NCBI GenBank assembly: GCA_027063785.1
Contig: JAMORC010000017.1
Coordinates: 1 to 42,013 of the forward strand
DNA length: 42,013 nucleotides
Source of the DNA: Desulfurobacteriaceae bacterium
Lineage (GTDB): Bacteria > Aquificota > Aquificia > Desulfurobacteriales > Desulfurobacteriaceae
Reading direction: 5' to 3'
Shown piece after piece: positions 29,255-40,766 of this stretch. A model generated the notes under the pieces. That model made no database searches. It worked only from the letters and a program-made list of their open reading frames with translations, and was not told the origin of the DNA. Positions within the stretch are counted from its first letter, which is position 1; each line of letters starts with the position of its first letter. Made by a program: the position numbers and the translations under genes.

Positions 29255-29663
29255 TCAAAGGCCGGCTTTAACGGCAGACAGCACTTCTTTCATTGCCTCG
29301 AAGTGGTCTTTAAGCCTCTAGGCTATTTCTTCAGCGACTTCCTCTCTATAAGTGTGGACTGTCAGGTTTCTGTCCTCGAGAGTTTTCATTAACATTACTG
29401 CAGTTTCTTCTCCTATTAGTCCGACGGAAAAAAAATTCCCTTATGCAGGATCTCGGACTTCTGCAGGTAATTCCTTCCCGCTCCAAGTACGTCTTAACCG
29501 TTTTCCACATTATTTCGAACGTGAACTTAAATCTCTGTATTGATGAATCCCTGAAGAAAGGGTAATCGTCGCTCTTCCTGTTTTTCTCCAGTTTCTTAAT
29601 CGCTTCTTCCAGCCTCTTTAAGGAGTGTTCGAAGTCGTTAACTACCCTGTTAAGTCTATCCAA
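29255..29663 (-). pseudogene. HI0074-like nucleotidyltransferase substrate-binding protein, frameshifted
   Basis: The first 78 residues or so match the HI0074/HepT-type partner of MNT proteins: DSSIQRFKFTFEIMWKTVKT, YLEREGITCRSPRSCIRE. At a run of eight T (29428-29435, read on the minus strand) the frame is lost. Removing one T restores FFSVGLIGEETAVMLMKTLE and DRNLTVHTYREEVAEEIA, the expected RN...HTY motif. A second defect, an in-frame TAG at 29318-29320, then cuts off about 18 residues before a TGA at 29255-29257. As it stands the first frame ends at 29346. It overlaps the NTase gene and precedes leuS. Confidence 0.75.
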
Positions 29664-29953
29664 ACTATTCCCTCTCTTATTTCTTCTTTAAATCTGTCGT
29701 TAACTTTTGAAAAGATAATCAGGTCAACCTTTTGGGGAAGTGGGGACTCTTCCATCAATTCCCTCAGCTCTCTAACAGCTTTTTCCAGGTTTTCCCGGCT
29801 GTCAAAAGCAAGGTCTATGTCGGAGTGTTCCGTGTGGGTGCCTCTTGCCTTGGAGCCGAAGAGGATAACTCTGACAGGAATGTCCCTGGATTTAAAGAAA
29901 TTTTCGAGGAAATCCTTTAACTCTTCCACTTTTAAAGGAAGGCGGGCGGGCAA
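29642..29953 (-). CDS. Minimal nucleotidyltransferase (MNT)
   Basis: 103 residues from a TTG at 29953, chosen because AGGAGG lies just upstream with 4-base spacing; a GTG at 30004 would add 17 residues without a good ribosome site. The motif GSKARGTHTEHSDIDLAF (Gly33-Ser34, Asp45, Asp47) is intact, and KVDLIIF gives the third acidic position. It normally pairs with the HI0074-like gene that follows, but that partner is frameshifted. First gene of a minus-strand run leading into leuS. Confidence 0.82.
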   Translation of the reverse strand: MPARLPLKVEELKDFLENFFKSRDIPVRVILFGSKARGTHTEHSDIDLAFDSRENLEKAVRELRELMEESPLPQKVDLIIFSKVNDRFKEEIREGIVWIDLTG

Positions 29954-30055
29954 GAAACCTCCTGAATACGTAGAGTTTTCAATTCTCCCGGAAAAGAAAA
30001 TCACGGAAAGACATAATATATATAATTGTAGCCAATTACGGAACCGGAGGTTCAG

Positions 30056-30484
30056 ATGGCGATTCCCGAACCGCTCCTGAAAGTTGCGGCCGTTTTCTTC
30101 GACGTGATTTTCGTTCTCCTTTTTACCTACTTTATCTTCGTAATCGGCCTCAGGCTGTACTGGAAAAGGAAGGCAAAGAAGATGAAGGGAAGGCCCGTTC
30201 CGACAAAAGGGGAATTTATGAGGCTAAAGAAAGGGAAAGGAGTGGTTTACTTCCACGCTCCAAACTGCCGTCCTTGTGCCTTCGTTGACCCGGTAATAAA
30301 GAAGCTGTCAAAGGAAGTTAAAGGCGTTCACTTTATAAAAGTGAACGTTGCAGAAAAACCAGAAGTTGCACGGGAATTCGGCATACTTGCAACCCCGACG
30401 GTGGTAATAACGGAAAACGGCACTGTTAAAGAAATCCTTATGGGCCCCGTTACGGAGGGAACCCTCAGGGAGAAGCTAAAGTGA
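30056..30484 (+). CDS. Membrane-anchored thioredoxin-family protein
   Basis: 142 residues. One N-terminal membrane helix (about 8-33) is followed by basic residues RLYWKRKAKK, so the thioredoxin domain should face the cytoplasm by the positive-inside rule. The thioredoxin domain (about 55-142) has active site CRPC (Cys71, Cys74) in VVYFHAPNCRPCAFVDP and the cis-proline segment ATPTVVI. GGAGG is 6 bases before the ATG. A TATAAT at 30021-30026 gives a possible start near 30033, without a good -35. It overlaps the next gene by four bases. Confidence 0.88.
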   Translation: MAIPEPLLKVAAVFFDVIFVLLFTYFIFVIGLRLYWKRKAKKMKGRPVPTKGEFMRLKKGKGVVYFHAPNCRPCAFVDPVIKKLSKEVKGVHFIKVNVAEKPEVAREFGILATPTVVITENGTVKEILMGPVTEGTLREKLK

Positions 30485-31863
30485 AAATCACGTTTAACGG
30501 AGCTGCAAGGGTAGTTACCGGAAGCTGCCACTTAATCGAAACAAACGGCGTTAAGTTCTTGCTCGACTGCGGCCTTTTTCAGGGAAGAGAAGAGCTGGAA
30601 GACCTTAATCCGAAATTTTCCTTTGACCCAAAGGACATCGACTTTGTAATCCTCTCCCACGGCCACCTCGACCACTGCGGAAGGCTTCCGTACCTGGTTA
30701 AAAGAGGATTCAGGGGAAAAATCTACGCTACACCCGGAACGGTAGACATAACAAGGCTCATCTTGATGGATGCCGCTCAGGTTCAGGAGGAGCACATAAA
30801 AACCCTCAACAGAAAGAGATTGCGGGAGGGGAAAGAACCGAAAGAACTTCTCTACACGCTGGATGACGTCTTCGACACATTCGGCCACTTTTCTCCCGTA
30901 AACTACCACGAGTGGAAAGAAGTAAAAGGAGTAAAGTTCCGGTTTCTCGATGCGGGGCATATCCTATGTTCCGAATCCGTAGAAGTCGTAGTTGAAGGGA
31001 AAAGGCTGCTTTTCAGCGGTGACATCGGAAATGCCGGGAAGCCCTTAATAAGGGATCCTGAACCGCCACCGAAGGCCGATATCGTAATGATAGAAACAAC
31101 CTACGGAGACAGGAAGCACAAAAGCCTCAAGGAATCGATAGAGGAATTTAAAACAGCCGTTCTCGACACGTTTGAGAGAGGCGGACTTGTTCTGATACCG
31201 ACATTTGCCCTGGAAAGAGCGCAGGACATTCTTTACATCTTAAAGCAGATGTATGAAAAAGGAGAACTGCCTCCCTGCAGGGTTTTCCTCGACTCCCCCC
31301 TGGCAATTTCGATAACTCAGGTTTTCAAGCGCCATCCGGAGTGCCTCGACGAAAAGGTCGTGAAGGAAATGAGAAAAGGAGACCTTTACAAGTTTCCTTA
31401 CCTGAAGTTCACAAGAACTGTCGAAGAGTCAAAGAAGATCAACGACTATAAAGGAAGGGCTGTAATAATTGCCGGAAACGGCATGTGTACGGGAGGCAGG
31501 ATTCTCCACCACTTGAAACACAGGATATGGGACAAGAAGAACTCAATAATCTTTGTCGGCTATCAGGCAGAAGGAACAATCGGCAGGCAGATAATAGAGG
31601 GAGCAAAGAAAGTAAAAATTTTCAACGAAGTTGTTGCCGTAAAGGCTTCCGTTTATACCATAAACGGATTTTCCTCTCACGCCGATCAGCCTCAGCTCTT
31701 GTCGTGGCTTAAAAGAGCTATTCATAGAAAGAGTAAGATTATATTGATCCACGGTGAAGAGAAGGTGGTTAAAAATTTCAGTAATTTAGTAAGAGAAATC
31801 TTTAAAATGGAACCTATAAGCCCAAAGCTTTATGAAAGTTTCAGATTTGATCATTGTAATTAA
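30481..31863 (+). CDS. MBL-fold / beta-CASP ribonuclease-family protein
   Basis: 460 residues from a GTG overlapping the previous stop (GTGA). The metallo-beta-lactamase motif is LSHGHLDHCGRLP (His60, His62, Asp64, His65), with further ligands in LDAGHILCSESVEV and FSGDIGN. The beta-CASP part follows (about 205-400, TYGDRKHK, IPTFALERAQDIL, MCTGGRILHHL), and the C-terminal motif FSSHADQPQLLSW supplies the last histidine. The family (COG1236, YSH1/CPSF73-like) contains RNA exo- and endonucleases. It may form an operon with the membrane thioredoxin. Confidence 0.9.
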   Translation: MKITFNGAARVVTGSCHLIETNGVKFLLDCGLFQGREELEDLNPKFSFDPKDIDFVILSHGHLDHCGRLPYLVKRGFRGKIYATPGTVDITRLILMDAAQVQEEHIKTLNRKRLREGKEPKELLYTLDDVFDTFGHFSPVNYHEWKEVKGVKFRFLDAGHILCSESVEVVVEGKRLLFSGDIGNAGKPLIRDPEPPPKADIVMIETTYGDRKHKSLKESIEEFKTAVLDTFERGGLVLIPTFALERAQDILYILKQMYEKGELPPCRVFLDSPLAISITQVFKRHPECLDEKVVKEMRKGDLYKFPYLKFTRTVEESKKINDYKGRAVIIAGNGMCTGGRILHHLKHRIWDKKNSIIFVGYQAEGTIGRQIIEGAKKVKIFNEVVAVKASVYTINGFSSHADQPQLLSWLKRAIHRKSKIILIHGEEKVVKNFSNLVREIFKMEPISPKLYESFRFDHCN

Positions 31864-31889: not shown

Positions 31890-32369
31890 TTATCTGGAGT
31901 AATCAAGGACTTTCCAACCATTACTTGCAGTAAAATCCTTGTTTTTCGTAGCATTCGGACAGTCTAAGTCATGAAGTTCATAACCTTTTTGGCTTTCTTT
32001 GTAATAAAAGACATCAGTTTCACTTTCATATCCATAAATTTTATCACCCCACTTATGCTTTGTGCAGACATTTGCATACCAGCCATCCACTTTTGCGGTA
32101 GACTTTATGCCTTCCGTTAGGTATTTATGTTCAAAGCTACCGATTCTTATTACTCTTTCCGTTATATCATCTGTAGAAAAACCAATAAATTGTTGTGTAA
32201 CTGCAAAGTAAGATAGTTCATCCTCTATTAGATTCTTAAGATCGTAGAGAGCGATGTTGTTGTAAGCCTGTGTTTTATATGAAGAAAAGTTCGGAATAAC
32301 TATGGAAACTAGTATTCCAACTATAACTAAGGTAATCAGAATTTCCAGCAAGGAAAATCCCTTAGTCAT
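31890..32369 (-). CDS. Type IV prepilin-like protein
   Basis: 159 residues. The prepilin signal MTKGFSLLEILITLVIVGIL has the processing site G|F with Glu at +5, followed by the hydrophobic helix. The globular part has two cysteines (VCTKHKW and DLDCPNA) likely forming the D-loop disulfide, and many aromatic residues. It lies 83 bases downstream of the first pilin and beyond a strong hairpin. The ribosome site (AAGGGTA) is weak, so it is probably a minor pilin or expressed at lower level. Confidence 0.85.
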   Translation of the reverse strand: MTKGFSLLEILITLVIVGILVSIVIPNFSSYKTQAYNNIALYDLKNLIEDELSYFAVTQQFIGFSTDDITERVIRIGSFEHKYLTEGIKSTAKVDGWYANVCTKHKWGDKIYGYESETDVFYYKESQKGYELHDLDCPNATKNKDFTASNGWKVLDYSR

Positions 32370-32410
32370 ATATTTACCCTTAATTCAATTTTGCAGTATT
32401 CAGGAATTTG

Positions 32411-32435
32411 AAGCAAGGGGGGGGGCCCCTTGCTT
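32411..32435 (-). terminator. Hairpin between the two pilin genes
   Basis: AAGCAAGGGG (32411-32420) pairs perfectly with CCCCTTGCTT (32426-32435) around a loop of five identical bases, giving nine consecutive G on the plus strand. It starts 18 bases after the pilA stop on the minus strand and lacks a clear U-tract, so it may be an attenuator or an RNA-stabilising end rather than a full terminator. Confidence 0.6.
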
Positions 32436-32452: not shown

Positions 32453-32860
32453 TTATGGACAAGAAATAGTTGAGTTAGAAACTTCCTTAGGAGCTGAATA
32501 TTCTGTGCTATTACAAGAACAATATGCAATATATGGTCCATTTGGAATATTCTTATGCTTAAGAACAAAATAGTATCCGGGAGTGCTACCACATGCAGTA
32601 GCGTTAACATAACCATGCGATTCAAAATCTACATTTTTAGACAGCTTTATACCTAGGTTGTCCTCAGTTGGATTAACATAATCATCATGTTCTGCAAAAT
32701 AAGCTTCTTCAGCAGCTATAATATTGTGAGCATCAGACCTCATAGCTGCTACATAAGCCCTCTTTTTGTACTTCGAAAACTGAGGAATGGCGATAGCCGC
32801 CAGAATGGAGATGATCGCAATGACGATCAGCAGCTCCACGAGCGTGAAACCTCTTCTCAT
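32453..32860 (-). CDS. pilA: Type IV major pilin PilA-like
   Basis: 135 residues. The prepilin leader MRRG|FTLVELLIVIAIISILA is a textbook N-methylated pilin start with Glu5. It is followed by the AAIAIPQFSKYKKRA helix and a short globular domain with four cysteines (ATACGS, YCSCNS, ISCP). A strong AAGGAGGT precedes the ATG, and the gene has its own sigma-54 promoter, typical of major pilins. A terminator-like hairpin follows. The short size resembles compact bacterial pilins. Confidence 0.9.
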   Translation of the reverse strand: MRRGFTLVELLIVIAIISILAAIAIPQFSKYKKRAYVAAMRSDAHNIIAAEEAYFAEHDDYVNPTEDNLGIKLSKNVDFESHGYVNATACGSTPGYYFVLKHKNIPNGPYIAYCSCNSTEYSAPKEVSNSTISCP

Positions 32861-32893
32861 GACCTACCTCCTTAAAGTGGTTTTTTTTTTCAA

Positions 32894-32915
32894 TTCTACC
32901 CAATTTTGGGTAGAA
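32894..32915. promoter_or_regulatory. 22-bp inverted repeat over the pilA start point
   Basis: TTCTACCCAA (32894-32903) and TTGGGTAGAA (32906-32915) are perfect 10-base arms with two bases between. The predicted sigma-54 start (32904) is at its centre, so the transcript would not contain both arms. A DNA-binding operator is therefore more likely than an RNA hairpin. Confidence 0.5.
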
Positions 32916-32930
32916 GCAAGTTTTATGCCA
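32915..32930 (-). promoter_or_regulatory. Sigma-54 promoter of pilA
   Basis: On the minus strand the sequence TGGCATAAAACTTGCT matches the -24/-12 consensus TGGCACG-N4-TTGCW, with GG and GC correctly spaced. Predicted start near 32904, giving a 44-base leader to the pilA ATG. Confidence 0.8.
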
Positions 32931-32980
32931 ATCGAAGTGTGAAAGAAGGTTCTTGTTATAAGGATACTGCTCCGGTACTT

Positions 32981-33010
32981 CTGTGACGAATTTTGTCAGC
33001 TGCTGTGACG
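32981..33010. promoter_or_regulatory. Upstream activator sites of pilA (direct repeats)
   Basis: CTGTGACG occurs at 32981-32988 and again at 33003-33010, 22 bases apart (two helical turns), at about -77 to -106 from the predicted pilA start. This position and spacing suit a PilR-type sigma-54 enhancer-binding protein. No pilR gene is in the window. Confidence 0.5.
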
Positions 33011-33028
33011 TAAATGGGCAGATATTTC

Positions 33029-34978
33029 TTACTTTTTCCTCCCCGTCAGCTGGTATCCGTAACTTCCGAGTTTCAGCAGATTAATGGTAAGGGTGATCTG
33101 ATAGTCTATGGTATCGTCGTAGTTCTTAACCCACCTGTAGGAGAGGCTGCCGTTCCAGCATCCCCTGTTGACCCTCAGGCTGTAGCTCCTTTCGCGGTCT
33201 TTTGAGTTGAGCAGGTCGTAGCGCTGGCTGTAGCTAAAGGAAAAGTACCTTCCCAGAGGAACGCTTGTCCCCCACCTGAGGTAGCTTATCTCCTCTTCAA
33301 ACTGTCTGTAGTAGTTTGTCCAGACCGTTGCAAAAGGGAAGGAAAAGTTCAGGTAAGTGTTGGAGTTTTTAAGCTCTCCGGATTCGATGGAGTACGAAAA
33401 GGTTTCTCTCAAGGAAACAAAATCCGCAGGAATCAGGTCGGCATCAAACCTAAAGTCTTTCCAGGCATTTTCGCTTCCCAGCAGGTAATCCGAGGAAAGA
33501 GAAATCCTGGCCACCCTGCCTTTCTTCCCGTAAAGGTAAGCTTCCAGGGAAGGAGATATTCTCCTTTCTCCCTTTATCCTGTCGCTGATGTCGTAGTAGG
33601 GATTGTCGTCCTGGTTTTCGGACTCGATGTAGCTGAACTCAAGTTCAGGGTTGAGAGACAGAGAATAACCGCTCTGCAGGGGAAAGAAGCTGTTAAACGC
33701 CAGCCTGTCACTGAAGTAAAGCTGTTTTCTGTCCCCGGACAGCTGGTAGTAGGTGTAAAGGTAGGAAAGTTCTGCGCTGTTTTTAAAAGTTCCGAGCTGA
33801 CGGACAAACCTTACTCCGGGCTTAAGGTTAACCCTGTAGCTGCTTCCGCCGGCTTTCCTGTAAAAGTAGGTGGATTCGAGGTCAAAGTTAAAGGTAAAGG
33901 GAGTATTCGGCAGGGGCACGTCCATCAGGTAGAAGTTGAGGTTCGGGAGCTTCTGATAAATCCTATCAGAAGACCCGTCAAGGTAACGCAGGTAAACGGC
34001 GTTTGCGTTCAAAATTGCGTGCTCCCAGAGCTTCGAAACCGCCAAATCCGACTTCGTATAAAGCCTAGTCTGCGCCTCAACGTCAAAACCCGAAGCGGCC
34101 TTGTAGTAAGTCCTGTTGCTTACGACCTCACTTCTCAAGCTTCCGTAAAGGTAGTCAGACGGCCTGTAGGTGTGGGACAGCTTAACATTCCAGTCCTTTT
34201 CGTTCCTCCTGTCTATCTGGTTGTAAAAAAGATTCCCGTAGTTGTTAACCCTGCCGAGAACGTACCTAAGCTCTGCCGACTTCGCAGAACCGTCCCTAAA
34301 CCTTTTCTCATAGGAAACTGTAAGGTCTGCGCTTCTTCCGAGGACAAGATAAAAGGGCTGTCTGTAAGTAAATCCGTCGTCGCTCCTGTAACCGAAGCGG
34401 GGAAATAGGAAGCCCGAAGACCTTTCCCTTTGAATCGGGCCGCTCAGGAAAGGCGTAACCAGAACCGGAATTTCCTTAACCCTGAAGGTAACCCACTTAC
34501 CCGAAAAGGATTCCCCCAGAAGTATCTTAAACTTCTTAGCTCCCACCGACCAGTCGGGACAGTCGTTCTTACAGGGAGTGTAAATTCCGTCGTAAGCTAT
34601 CCACTCCTTCTCCGACAGCCTTTCTATCCTGTCCGCCTTAATCCTGTCGGTGGGGGAAAGCCAGCCGTCGGCCTTCTCTATAACTGCTCTTTTCCTGTTC
34701 AAGTCGTAAATAATCCTTTCGCACTTAAAGTGGGCGGGAGGCTCCCTTACCTCAACGTTTCCCCAGAGGCGGAGAATTCCCGCACCTTTGTCGTAAAAGC
34801 CTTTGTCGGCAGTTATAACAACGTCGCCGTAAACTACCTTAACCCTTCCCTCTGCTGTAAGCTGAGAGTTGACGTTTCCGTAAAGCCTATCGGCCGTCAT
34901 CTCCACGGGAATTCGGTCGTCTGCCGGTGAAGAGACGGGAAGAAGGATTAAAGACAAGGCCAGCAAAGCGGTTCTCAA
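33029..34978 (-). CDS. lptD: LPS-assembly protein LptD
   Basis: 649 residues from a TTG with AAGGGG upstream. A signal peptide (about 1-18) is followed by the OstA/LptA-like beta-jellyroll (about 22-125: VEMTADRLYGNVNSQLTAEG, then VVYGDVVITADKGFYD). The long C-terminal part forms the outer-membrane beta-barrel. The conserved region YTPCKNDCPDWSVGAKKFKI (two cysteines) and VPVLVTPFL-like IPVLVTPFLSGPI mark the barrel start. LptD inserts lipopolysaccharide into the outer leaflet together with LptE. It is shorter than the E. coli protein, as is usual in deep-branching phyla. It diverges from the phasin-like gene. Confidence 0.88.
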   Translation of the reverse strand: MRTALLALSLILLPVSSPADDRIPVEMTADRLYGNVNSQLTAEGRVKVVYGDVVITADKGFYDKGAGILRLWGNVEVREPPAHFKCERIIYDLNRKRAVIEKADGWLSPTDRIKADRIERLSEKEWIAYDGIYTPCKNDCPDWSVGAKKFKILLGESFSGKWVTFRVKEIPVLVTPFLSGPIQRERSSGFLFPRFGYRSDDGFTYRQPFYLVLGRSADLTVSYEKRFRDGSAKSAELRYVLGRVNNYGNLFYNQIDRRNEKDWNVKLSHTYRPSDYLYGSLRSEVVSNRTYYKAASGFDVEAQTRLYTKSDLAVSKLWEHAILNANAVYLRYLDGSSDRIYQKLPNLNFYLMDVPLPNTPFTFNFDLESTYFYRKAGGSSYRVNLKPGVRFVRQLGTFKNSAELSYLYTYYQLSGDRKQLYFSDRLAFNSFFPLQSGYSLSLNPELEFSYIESENQDDNPYYDISDRIKGERRISPSLEAYLYGKKGRVARISLSSDYLLGSENAWKDFRFDADLIPADFVSLRETFSYSIESGELKNSNTYLNFSFPFATVWTNYYRQFEEEISYLRWGTSVPLGRYFSFSYSQRYDLLNSKDRERSYSLRVNRGCWNGSLSYRWVKNYDDTIDYQITLTINLLKLGSYGYQLTGRKK

Positions 34979-39565: not shown

Positions 39566-39652
39566 GCCCGGGTGGCGGAATTGGCAGACGCGCAGGACTC
39601 AGGATCCTGTGGCCGCAAGGCCGTGCGGGTTCAAATCCCGCCCCGGGCACCA
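39566..39652 (+). tRNA. tRNA-Leu (anticodon CAG)
   Basis: 87 bases including encoded CCA. The acceptor GCCCGGG pairs with CCCGGGC. The anticodon stem CAGGA/TCCTG holds loop CTCAGGA, giving anticodon CAG, which reads CUG. A long variable arm (GGCC GCAA GGCC) confirms a class II tRNA. The T-arm GCGGG-TTCAAAT-CCCGC is identical to that of the tRNA-Leu at 20925. Foreign-looking genes begin about 160 bases after its 3' end. Confidence 0.95.
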
Positions 39653-39754
39653 AGAAAATAAAAGCTTTCACGACATTCAACCCTCAATCAAGAGCGGAAT
39701 TTGTGTCTCATTTGTGCCATCTCAACAGCACTGTGCCTTTCCTTGCGCCAATAG

Positions 39755-39783
39755 TTGAGCTTTTCAATCAAAAGATTTAAAAT
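39755..39783 (+). promoter_or_regulatory. Promoter and operator of the repressor gene
   Basis: TTGAGC (39755-39760), 17 bases, then TAAAAT (39778-39783). A 22-base site (39762-39783, core ATCAAAAGAT) fills the spacer and -10. It matches 19 of 22 bases of the site at 40449-40470, with the same geometry, so the repressor probably controls its own gene. Confidence 0.6.
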
Positions 39784-39812
39784 ATAAGAAACATAACGGG
39801 TGGAGGAATCTC

Positions 39813-40445
39813 GTGAAAAGCGACATAGGCAAAAGACTACTCAAACTCAGACAAAAGAAAGGAATCTCTCGACTTCAACTTGCTAAAGAACTAATAGAGC
39901 AAGGGTATATTGACTACGAATCCCCCGAATCTCTCAATCAATATCTCTATATGATAGAAAAGGGAAAAAGAAATCCGAAAGATGAAACTTTAAAACCAAT
40001 AGCTGAATACTTTAACGTACCTATACAGTGGCTCAAAGGAGAAATAGCCTACATCCCTATAGTTGGAGGAACTCAAGCCGGAAGTTTTGGTGGACATATT
40101 GCGGATGCTGAAAGTTACTTTCCCCTACCAGCATTTCTCATTCCTCTTCCAGAACCAGAAGAACGCACTTTCTTCATGGAAGTAGAAGGCGACAGTATGT
40201 ATCCTCTGTTTGAACCAGGGGATCTTGTTCATTTAGCTGATCCTTCTTTTATCTCTCCTAAAAATGGAGATGAGGTTGTTGTTATTAAGGACGGAGAAGC
40301 AACTTTAAAAAAATACTACACCGATGGAAATAAAGTAAAACTCATTCCTTTAAATGAAGTCTATAAACCAATAGAGTTAACTCAAGAAGATTTAAGAGAC
40401 GTAATGATCTTTAAGGTCATCGGCGTTTACAAAAGGAATCGTTGA
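39813..40445 (+). CDS. CI/LexA-like phage repressor (XRE HTH + peptidase S24)
   Basis: 210 residues from a GTG with GGAGG upstream. The N-terminal helix-turn-helix (about 3-68) runs IGKRLLKLRQKKGISRLQLA to MIEKGKRNP. The linker has Ala89-Gly90 (GTQAGSF), a plausible self-cleavage site. The S24 domain has catalytic Ser128 (VEGDSMYPLFEPGD) and Lys166 (GEATLKKY). Such repressors hold a prophage silent and self-cleave with RecA after DNA damage. The catalytic residues are intact. A/T content is higher than in the housekeeping genes. It lies just past a tRNA-Leu. Confidence 0.88.
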   Translation: MKSDIGKRLLKLRQKKGISRLQLAKELIEQGYIDYESPESLNQYLYMIEKGKRNPKDETLKPIAEYFNVPIQWLKGEIAYIPIVGGTQAGSFGGHIADAESYFPLPAFLIPLPEPEERTFFMEVEGDSMYPLFEPGDLVHLADPSFISPKNGDEVVVIKDGEATLKKYYTDGNKVKLIPLNEVYKPIELTQEDLRDVMIFKVIGVYKRNR

Positions 40446-40470
40446 CAATTTAAATCAAATGATTTAAATT
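40442..40470 (+). promoter_or_regulatory. Promoter and operator downstream of the repressor gene
   Basis: TTGACA (40442-40447, overlapping the repressor stop), 17 bases, TAAATT (40465-40470). A perfect inverted repeat AATTTAAATC-AAAT-GATTTAAATT spans 40447-40470. It drives the genes at 40511 and 40767 and should be closed by the repressor. Confidence 0.65.
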
Positions 40471-40510
40471 TGACTGTGGAAAATAAAAAACCCGTAAATA
40501 GGAGGTTGCA

Positions 40511-40702
40511 ATGGGAATCAAAAAAGTGCTGCAAAACATGTTGGACGGAACCCTAACAATTACGGTAAGCGGACAAGGTGTAAAAGCAATTGTAGAAGAC
40601 CAAGGAGTTTGCCAAGTTTATACAGCAGACACAGTAGAGGAACTCCTTGAAAAGCTTTCATTTTTTGATCCCATCAAAATTCTTACCAAGAACCTCAATT
40701 AG
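40511..40702 (+). CDS. Small hypothetical protein of the phage-like region
   Basis: 63 residues. AGGAGG lies 6 bases before the ATG. The sequence MGIKKVLQNMLDGTLTITVS continues with a mixed strand/helix pattern and the segment TADTVEELLEKLSFFDPIKI. No family recognised. It is the first gene of the operon under the operator-controlled promoter at 40442. In phages this position often holds early or regulatory genes, which is only context. Confidence 0.65.
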   Translation: MGIKKVLQNMLDGTLTITVSGQGVKAIVEDQGVCQVYTADTVEELLEKLSFFDPIKILTKNLN

Positions 40703-40721
40703 GCACTTAATTTGCCTAATT
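40697..40721. repeat. Hairpin at the end of the 40511 gene
   Basis: AATTAGGCA (40697-40705) pairs perfectly with TGCCTAATT (40713-40721) around 7 bases, overlapping the stop codon. TTGACA at 40720-40725 directly follows and may be a -35 for the next gene, so this could be an operator, an attenuator, or both. Confidence 0.45.
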
Positions 40722-40766
40722 GACAAAGCAAATTATTGGTATTAACCTTAATGGATGGAGGAAGCG

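Follow-up and report, generated by a model that had tools for sequence, protein, structure and literature searches.

Control of the pilin gene pilA by PilS/PilR and RpoN has been described in Pseudomonas aeruginosa and Geobacter sulfurreducens (PMC6058289, PMC2725144), and the sensor kinase PilS has six transmembrane segments (PMC6058289). In commensal Neisseria, pilE is controlled by Nps/Npa and RpoN, and this control requires bending by IHF between the upstream activator sequence (UAS) and the promoter (PMC6528607). In the qrr genes of Vibrio, sigma-54 enhancers are reported to carry a fingerprint of insertions and deletions that span whole helical turns (PMC4740811). Repression through a palindrome is known from Ralstonia eutropha, in which the palindrome-binding regulator PhaR represses one phasin promoter (PMC12849132). 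Here we analysed a pilin promoter within a window of 42,013 nucleotides (the whole stretch of DNA under study) from a Desulfurobacteriaceae bacterium. Judged by its sequence and by comparison with related genomes, the architecture of this promoter is genuine and conserved, and it belongs to the known PilR/sigma-54 kind.

The pilin gene and its sigma-54 element

The pilA-like gene (32453..32860, minus strand, ATG at 32860) encodes a type IV pilin of 135 aa with the N-terminus GFTLVELLIVIAIISILAAIAIPQF; it matches Pfam N_methyl (8.5e-9), and an NCBIfam prepilin domain exceeds its cut-off. Its ribosome-binding site, AAGGAGG, was read from the sequence at 32867..32873 (minus strand), and AGGAGG is also found 5' of the pilin genes of relatives. 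Upstream lies a gene for an LptD-like outer-membrane protein (33029..34978, minus strand; NCBIfam LptD, under cut-off), which is on the same strand and ends 168 nt from the pilin ATG, and downstream lies a second pilin-like gene (31890..32369, minus strand; 159 aa; Pfam N_methyl). When public genomes were queried with the pilin protein, only distant pilins were recovered, none of them recognisably of the same family; the Pseudomonas and deltaproteobacterial comparators discussed below come from this search.

The initial annotation had described an exactly spaced -24/-12 element upstream of pilA, and it is indeed present on the minus strand at 32931-32915 (TTGGCATAAAACTTGCT). The element is consensus-like, its GG-to-GC spacing is exact, and it scores 16.1 bits with a sigma-54 matrix modelled on a published compilation. 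In a pattern scan of the 1.57 Mb genome, the exact sequence TTGGCA-N6-TTGCT occurred only once, at the pilin promoter. If the C of the -12 GC (32916) is taken as -12, the predicted transcription start (+1) of pilA lies at 32904, +-2 nt, on the minus strand.

Several other features of the window were observed. Between the two pilin genes, 3' of pilA, lies a strong G/C-rich hairpin with a C9 tract (32410..32434, minus strand; RNA fold -16.4 kcal/mol, z -3.5); it has no T-run and was not called in a terminator search, and it may stabilise the pilA message or lower the expression of the second pilin. A beta-CASP metallo-beta-lactamase nuclease is encoded at 30481-31863 (plus strand), with scores under the cut-offs for type VII Cas14 (438.9 bits, cut-off 800) and aCPSF1 (316, cut-off 580), and a nucleotidyltransferase gene adjoins its substrate-binding-like partner at 29346-30004 (minus strand; MNT/HEPN-type pair). 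The region 39566-40755 contains a tRNA, a gene with HTH_3 and S24 peptidase domains (LexA/CI-like) and then two perfect inverted repeats (40447-40470 and 40695-40723) that precede a gene without a Pfam match; it may be a regulatory or mobile-element remnant.

Putative activator dyads and candidate regulators

The genome encodes one RpoN, on contig C49 (Sigma54_DBD 1.7e-51), and two strong bEBPs, on contigs C8 and C39. The gene for the C8 protein (1029-2432 of that contig) lies beside a kinase gene whose product has an N-terminal hydrophobic, membrane-spanning region, a membrane-kinase layout that matches PilS. Thus, both rpoN and a PilR-like gene, on whose presence the initial annotation had made its reading depend, are found in the genome, the latter as part of a PilS/PilR-like pair. 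Most members of the family and part of a second family have an orthologue of the C8 protein (E below 1e-150), and the kinase, bEBP and pilin genes stand side by side, in pilS-pilR-pilA order, in two relatives (G059 and G025). A plasmid search for a named PilR returned generic annotations only.

Two direct repeats of CTGTGACG had been proposed as upstream sites. These octamers are present on the plus strand at 32981-32988 and 33003-33010, 22 bp apart and at -77 to -106 from +1, so that the repeats and their spacing stand; however, they are not the unit, as each forms one half of a 15-bp dyad. Alignment on the -12 element of 27 pilin promoters (that of the window and 26 from relatives) gave TGACAAAATTTGTCA as the conserved unit. 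In the window, the proximal PilR-type dyad TGACAAAATTCGTCA (32984-32998, minus strand) is centred at -87 with 1 mismatch to this unit, and the distal, degenerate dyad TGCCCATTTACGTCA (33006-33020, minus strand) is centred at -109 with 5 mismatches; the two are 22 bp apart centre to centre, and the proximal one is the single strong copy. It is also the genome's best match to TGACAAANTTTGTCA, tied with one other site.

About 25 related genomes have the same dyads at their pilin promoters, and the comparison with relatives, which the initial annotation had named as a check, shows that sigma-54 elements and dyads alike have been kept there. Across 45 dyad copies, A3 and C4 never vary, and the remaining positions of TGAC/GTCA seldom do; because this collection was selected for few mismatches, the independent evidence lies in positions and spacings only. 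Most pilin promoters carry two copies, spaced by 21-23 bp or 41-42 bp, and the proximal dyad is found at -73 to -76, -85 to -87, -96, or -132 to -137. These positions appear to step by roughly one helical turn, as in the published enhancer fingerprint of the Vibrio qrr genes (PMC4740811). Circular statistics were strong at periods of 10-12 bp, with the exact period left unfixed and with relatives that are non-independent. Within genus g7 (L022, L032, L033 and L036), the dyad pairs are 41-42 bp apart rather than 21-23, and two of the pairs lie about 50 bp further upstream; on sequence grounds, these layouts are whole-turn rearrangements of one enhancer.

A dyad followed after 36-62 bp by a sigma-54 element was found in 14 of 136 genomes of the class, with one match each, whereas the reversed pattern used as control gave 0, and all 14 matches coincide with pilin promoters already seen in relatives. 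Single dyads, in contrast, were not enriched genome-wide over the control; the site therefore looks dedicated to pilA in this genome and not part of a broad regulon.

The distribution of the regulator agrees with that of the sites. Of the genomes with a C8 orthologue whose pilin promoter could be read, all 25 carry one or more dyads there, and the sigma-54 score is at least 12 in 22 of them and 7.4-11.1 in G025, G041 and G052, whereas the dyad/sigma-54 arrangement is missing from 11 of 11 genomes without the orthologue. The association persists with genera as the unit of counting (12 versus 6, one genus being on both sides), although counts at either level are not phylogenetically independent and carry no correction for phylogeny. 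Within the same family, the pilin loci of G001 (L010 and L179) and G013 (L180) have no C8 PilR orthologue, dyads or pilin sigma-54 element, as if pilin control had been rewired there; G013 is 89% complete, and its pilin is close to a contig end.

Similar sites are also found beyond these relatives. When a Pseudomonas genome was searched with the C8 protein, the best match lay at a locus that encodes a membrane kinase and a bEBP whose sequence ends in SFRSMRYRLKK and that has a pilin gene nearby; we take this pair to be PilS-PilR. The C8 protein ends in SFREFRYRYDK, and the two proteins have the same type of recognition helix (SFRSMRYR versus SFREFRYR). Of 150 Pseudomonas genomes, 49 contain TGACA-N5-TGTCA followed after 60-88 bp by a sigma-54 element (control, 0); a pilin lies downstream at 20 of the 20 loci read, and the dyad centres of -107/-108 correspond to the position of the distal site (-109) in the window. 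The PilR sites of P. aeruginosa are TGTC-type elements that lie from about -80 to -120, and this dyad would hold such elements as its half-sites. In a deltaproteobacterial genome, such a bEBP is likewise encoded upstream of a pilin that has a sigma-54 element and a related dyad.

Activation by the NtrC-like C39 regulator instead of the C8 protein has to be considered, since these are the only two strong bEBPs in the genome and their matches to the Pseudomonas PilR are close (333 bits for C8 and 323 for C39, a modest separation at that distance). We regard it as very unlikely. The C39 protein, which ends in IHRNTLRKKIKE and whose gene has a kinase gene just before it, carries an NtrC-type recognition helix (IHRNTLRKK) and has the better NtrC family score; C8 orthologues adjoin pilA in relatives; and G001 has retained two other bEBPs but neither a C8 orthologue nor dyads.

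Control of pilA by PilR and sigma-54, which the initial annotation had put forward, is thus well supported by rpoN, the PilS/PilR-like pair and the conserved sites, and further by the co-occurrence with PilR orthologues, the pilS-pilR-pilA synteny in two relatives and the Pseudomonas sites. The window very probably contains a PilS/PilR-controlled, sigma-54-dependent major-pilin promoter. We propose that sigma-54 RNA polymerase would sit closed on the -24/-12 element, of which the sequence is seen and the binding inferred, and that PilR, as phosphorylated dimers, would occupy both TGACA-N5-TGTCA dyads, which at a spacing of 22 bp share one face of the helix; binding would be strong at -87 and weak at the degenerate site at -109. 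As in the bEBP family generally, a short in-phase loop in the DNA would then bring PilR to the polymerase, and PilR would open the promoter through ATP hydrolysis. Orthology and synteny point to the PilR-like protein G000:C8:1029-2432 and its adjoining membrane kinase as the regulator, with its binding predicted.

The palindrome at the predicted start point

A perfect 10+10 inverted repeat centred on the predicted +1 had also been reported, and it exists at 32894-32915 (TTCTACCCAA-AA-TTGGGTAGAA), with its centre at -1/+1 and arms that are 100% complementary. Its proposed role as an added repressor layer is speculation, as the palindrome is unconserved, unrepeated in the genome and without a candidate regulator. 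Scans of the genome that specified 20 or 16 bases and allowed 3 mismatches gave no second copy. Among 20 pilin promoters of relatives, all of other genera, no perfect inverted repeat with an arm of at least 8 occurred near +1, and an arm-7 repeat was present in only 1. Elsewhere in the class, matches within two mismatches equalled the control level; the best of them, in G004 with two symmetric changes, was rejected as it lies inside a coding ORF.

Other identities for the palindrome were also considered. It was rejected as an intrinsic terminator, as there is no T-run after the stem on either strand and no terminator-like site, and searches for an RNA hairpin or an Rfam family gave nothing. 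TACCC-N6-GGGTA resembles CsoR-type operators, a reading that was dropped as there is no second site. The palindrome was also rejected as a PilR site, since it does not preserve A3 and C4, the invariant positions of the dyad half-site.

A neutral origin of the palindrome, by a mutation such as a template switch that copied one arm from the other or by coincidence, is in our view reasonably likely. Such a repeat would be tolerated, since few bases between -11 and +10 are required, and the stretch from -11 to -1 indeed varies freely among relatives. A singleton that is restricted to one lineage is what a neutral origin predicts, and the window holds other perfect 10+10 repeats, two of them inside predicted genes. 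The naive chance of a palindrome of this size at this exact place (+-2) is nevertheless low (2 of 40,000 simulated promoters, ~5e-5, in a post hoc test under a simple Markov model); anywhere in the 168-bp intergenic region, it arose in 9 of 4,000 simulations, also post hoc, and looking at the scale of a genome makes one such coincidence plausible. The same low chance, together with the centring of a perfect 22-bp dyad on the bubble region, is what favours a repressor operator that occludes the start or jams the poised sigma-54 polymerase, an off-switch atop PilR activation. This reading is unlikely given the scans of the genome, the relatives and the class described above and the lack of a regulator gene near the palindrome; a repressor with a single target would be compatible with the lack of a second site, but a genus-specific protein of this kind that holds the sigma-54 polymerase or the bubble shut is itself improbable. 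If it were true, pilin expression would answer two signals, activation by PilS/PilR and local de-repression.

A role without a protein is similarly doubtful, whether the DNA itself affected melting of the promoter or transcripts that read through from the lptD-like gene formed a hairpin. That gene lies 168 nt upstream in the same orientation, and read-through RNA would fold the palindrome into a stem of 7-8 bp; however, an RNA begun at +1 contains one arm only and folds no better than shuffles, the fold of the 190-nt region is only 1.3 sd below shuffles, and the stem lacks the T-run of a terminator. We therefore rank the neutral origin first, with a private repressor site and an effect at the DNA or RNA level about equal. 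The +1 palindrome lies outside the conserved machinery and is most likely an accident of sequence in one lineage or a hypothetical local operator.

Comparison with known systems

Our analysis extends PilR/sigma-54 control of pilins to a bacterial family for which we found no such report in the literature. The operator TGACA-N5-TGTCA, phased by helical turns, recurs in Pseudomonas and gives a basis for predicting PilR targets in other phyla. If functional, the palindrome at +1 would give a sigma-54 promoter an off-switch of an unusual kind; such a palindrome was found neither in relatives nor in the literature consulted. PhaR of R. eutropha serves only as an example of palindromic repression, as it has repeated sites and a known regulator, whereas there is one site here.

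The control of pilE in commensal Neisseria is alike in its two-component bEBP, upstream activator sequence and RpoN promoter, but differs in that IHF bending is needed between the UAS and the promoter. The PilS/PilR systems of P. aeruginosa and G. sulfurreducens are closest, alike in the sigma-54 promoter, the NtrC-family response regulator, the membrane sensor kinase and the pilin target. In contrast to these systems, pilS-pilR and pilA lie on different contigs here and the distal dyad is degenerate; nevertheless, Pseudomonas genomes share with the promoter of the window the same type of operator dyad and the same distal position.
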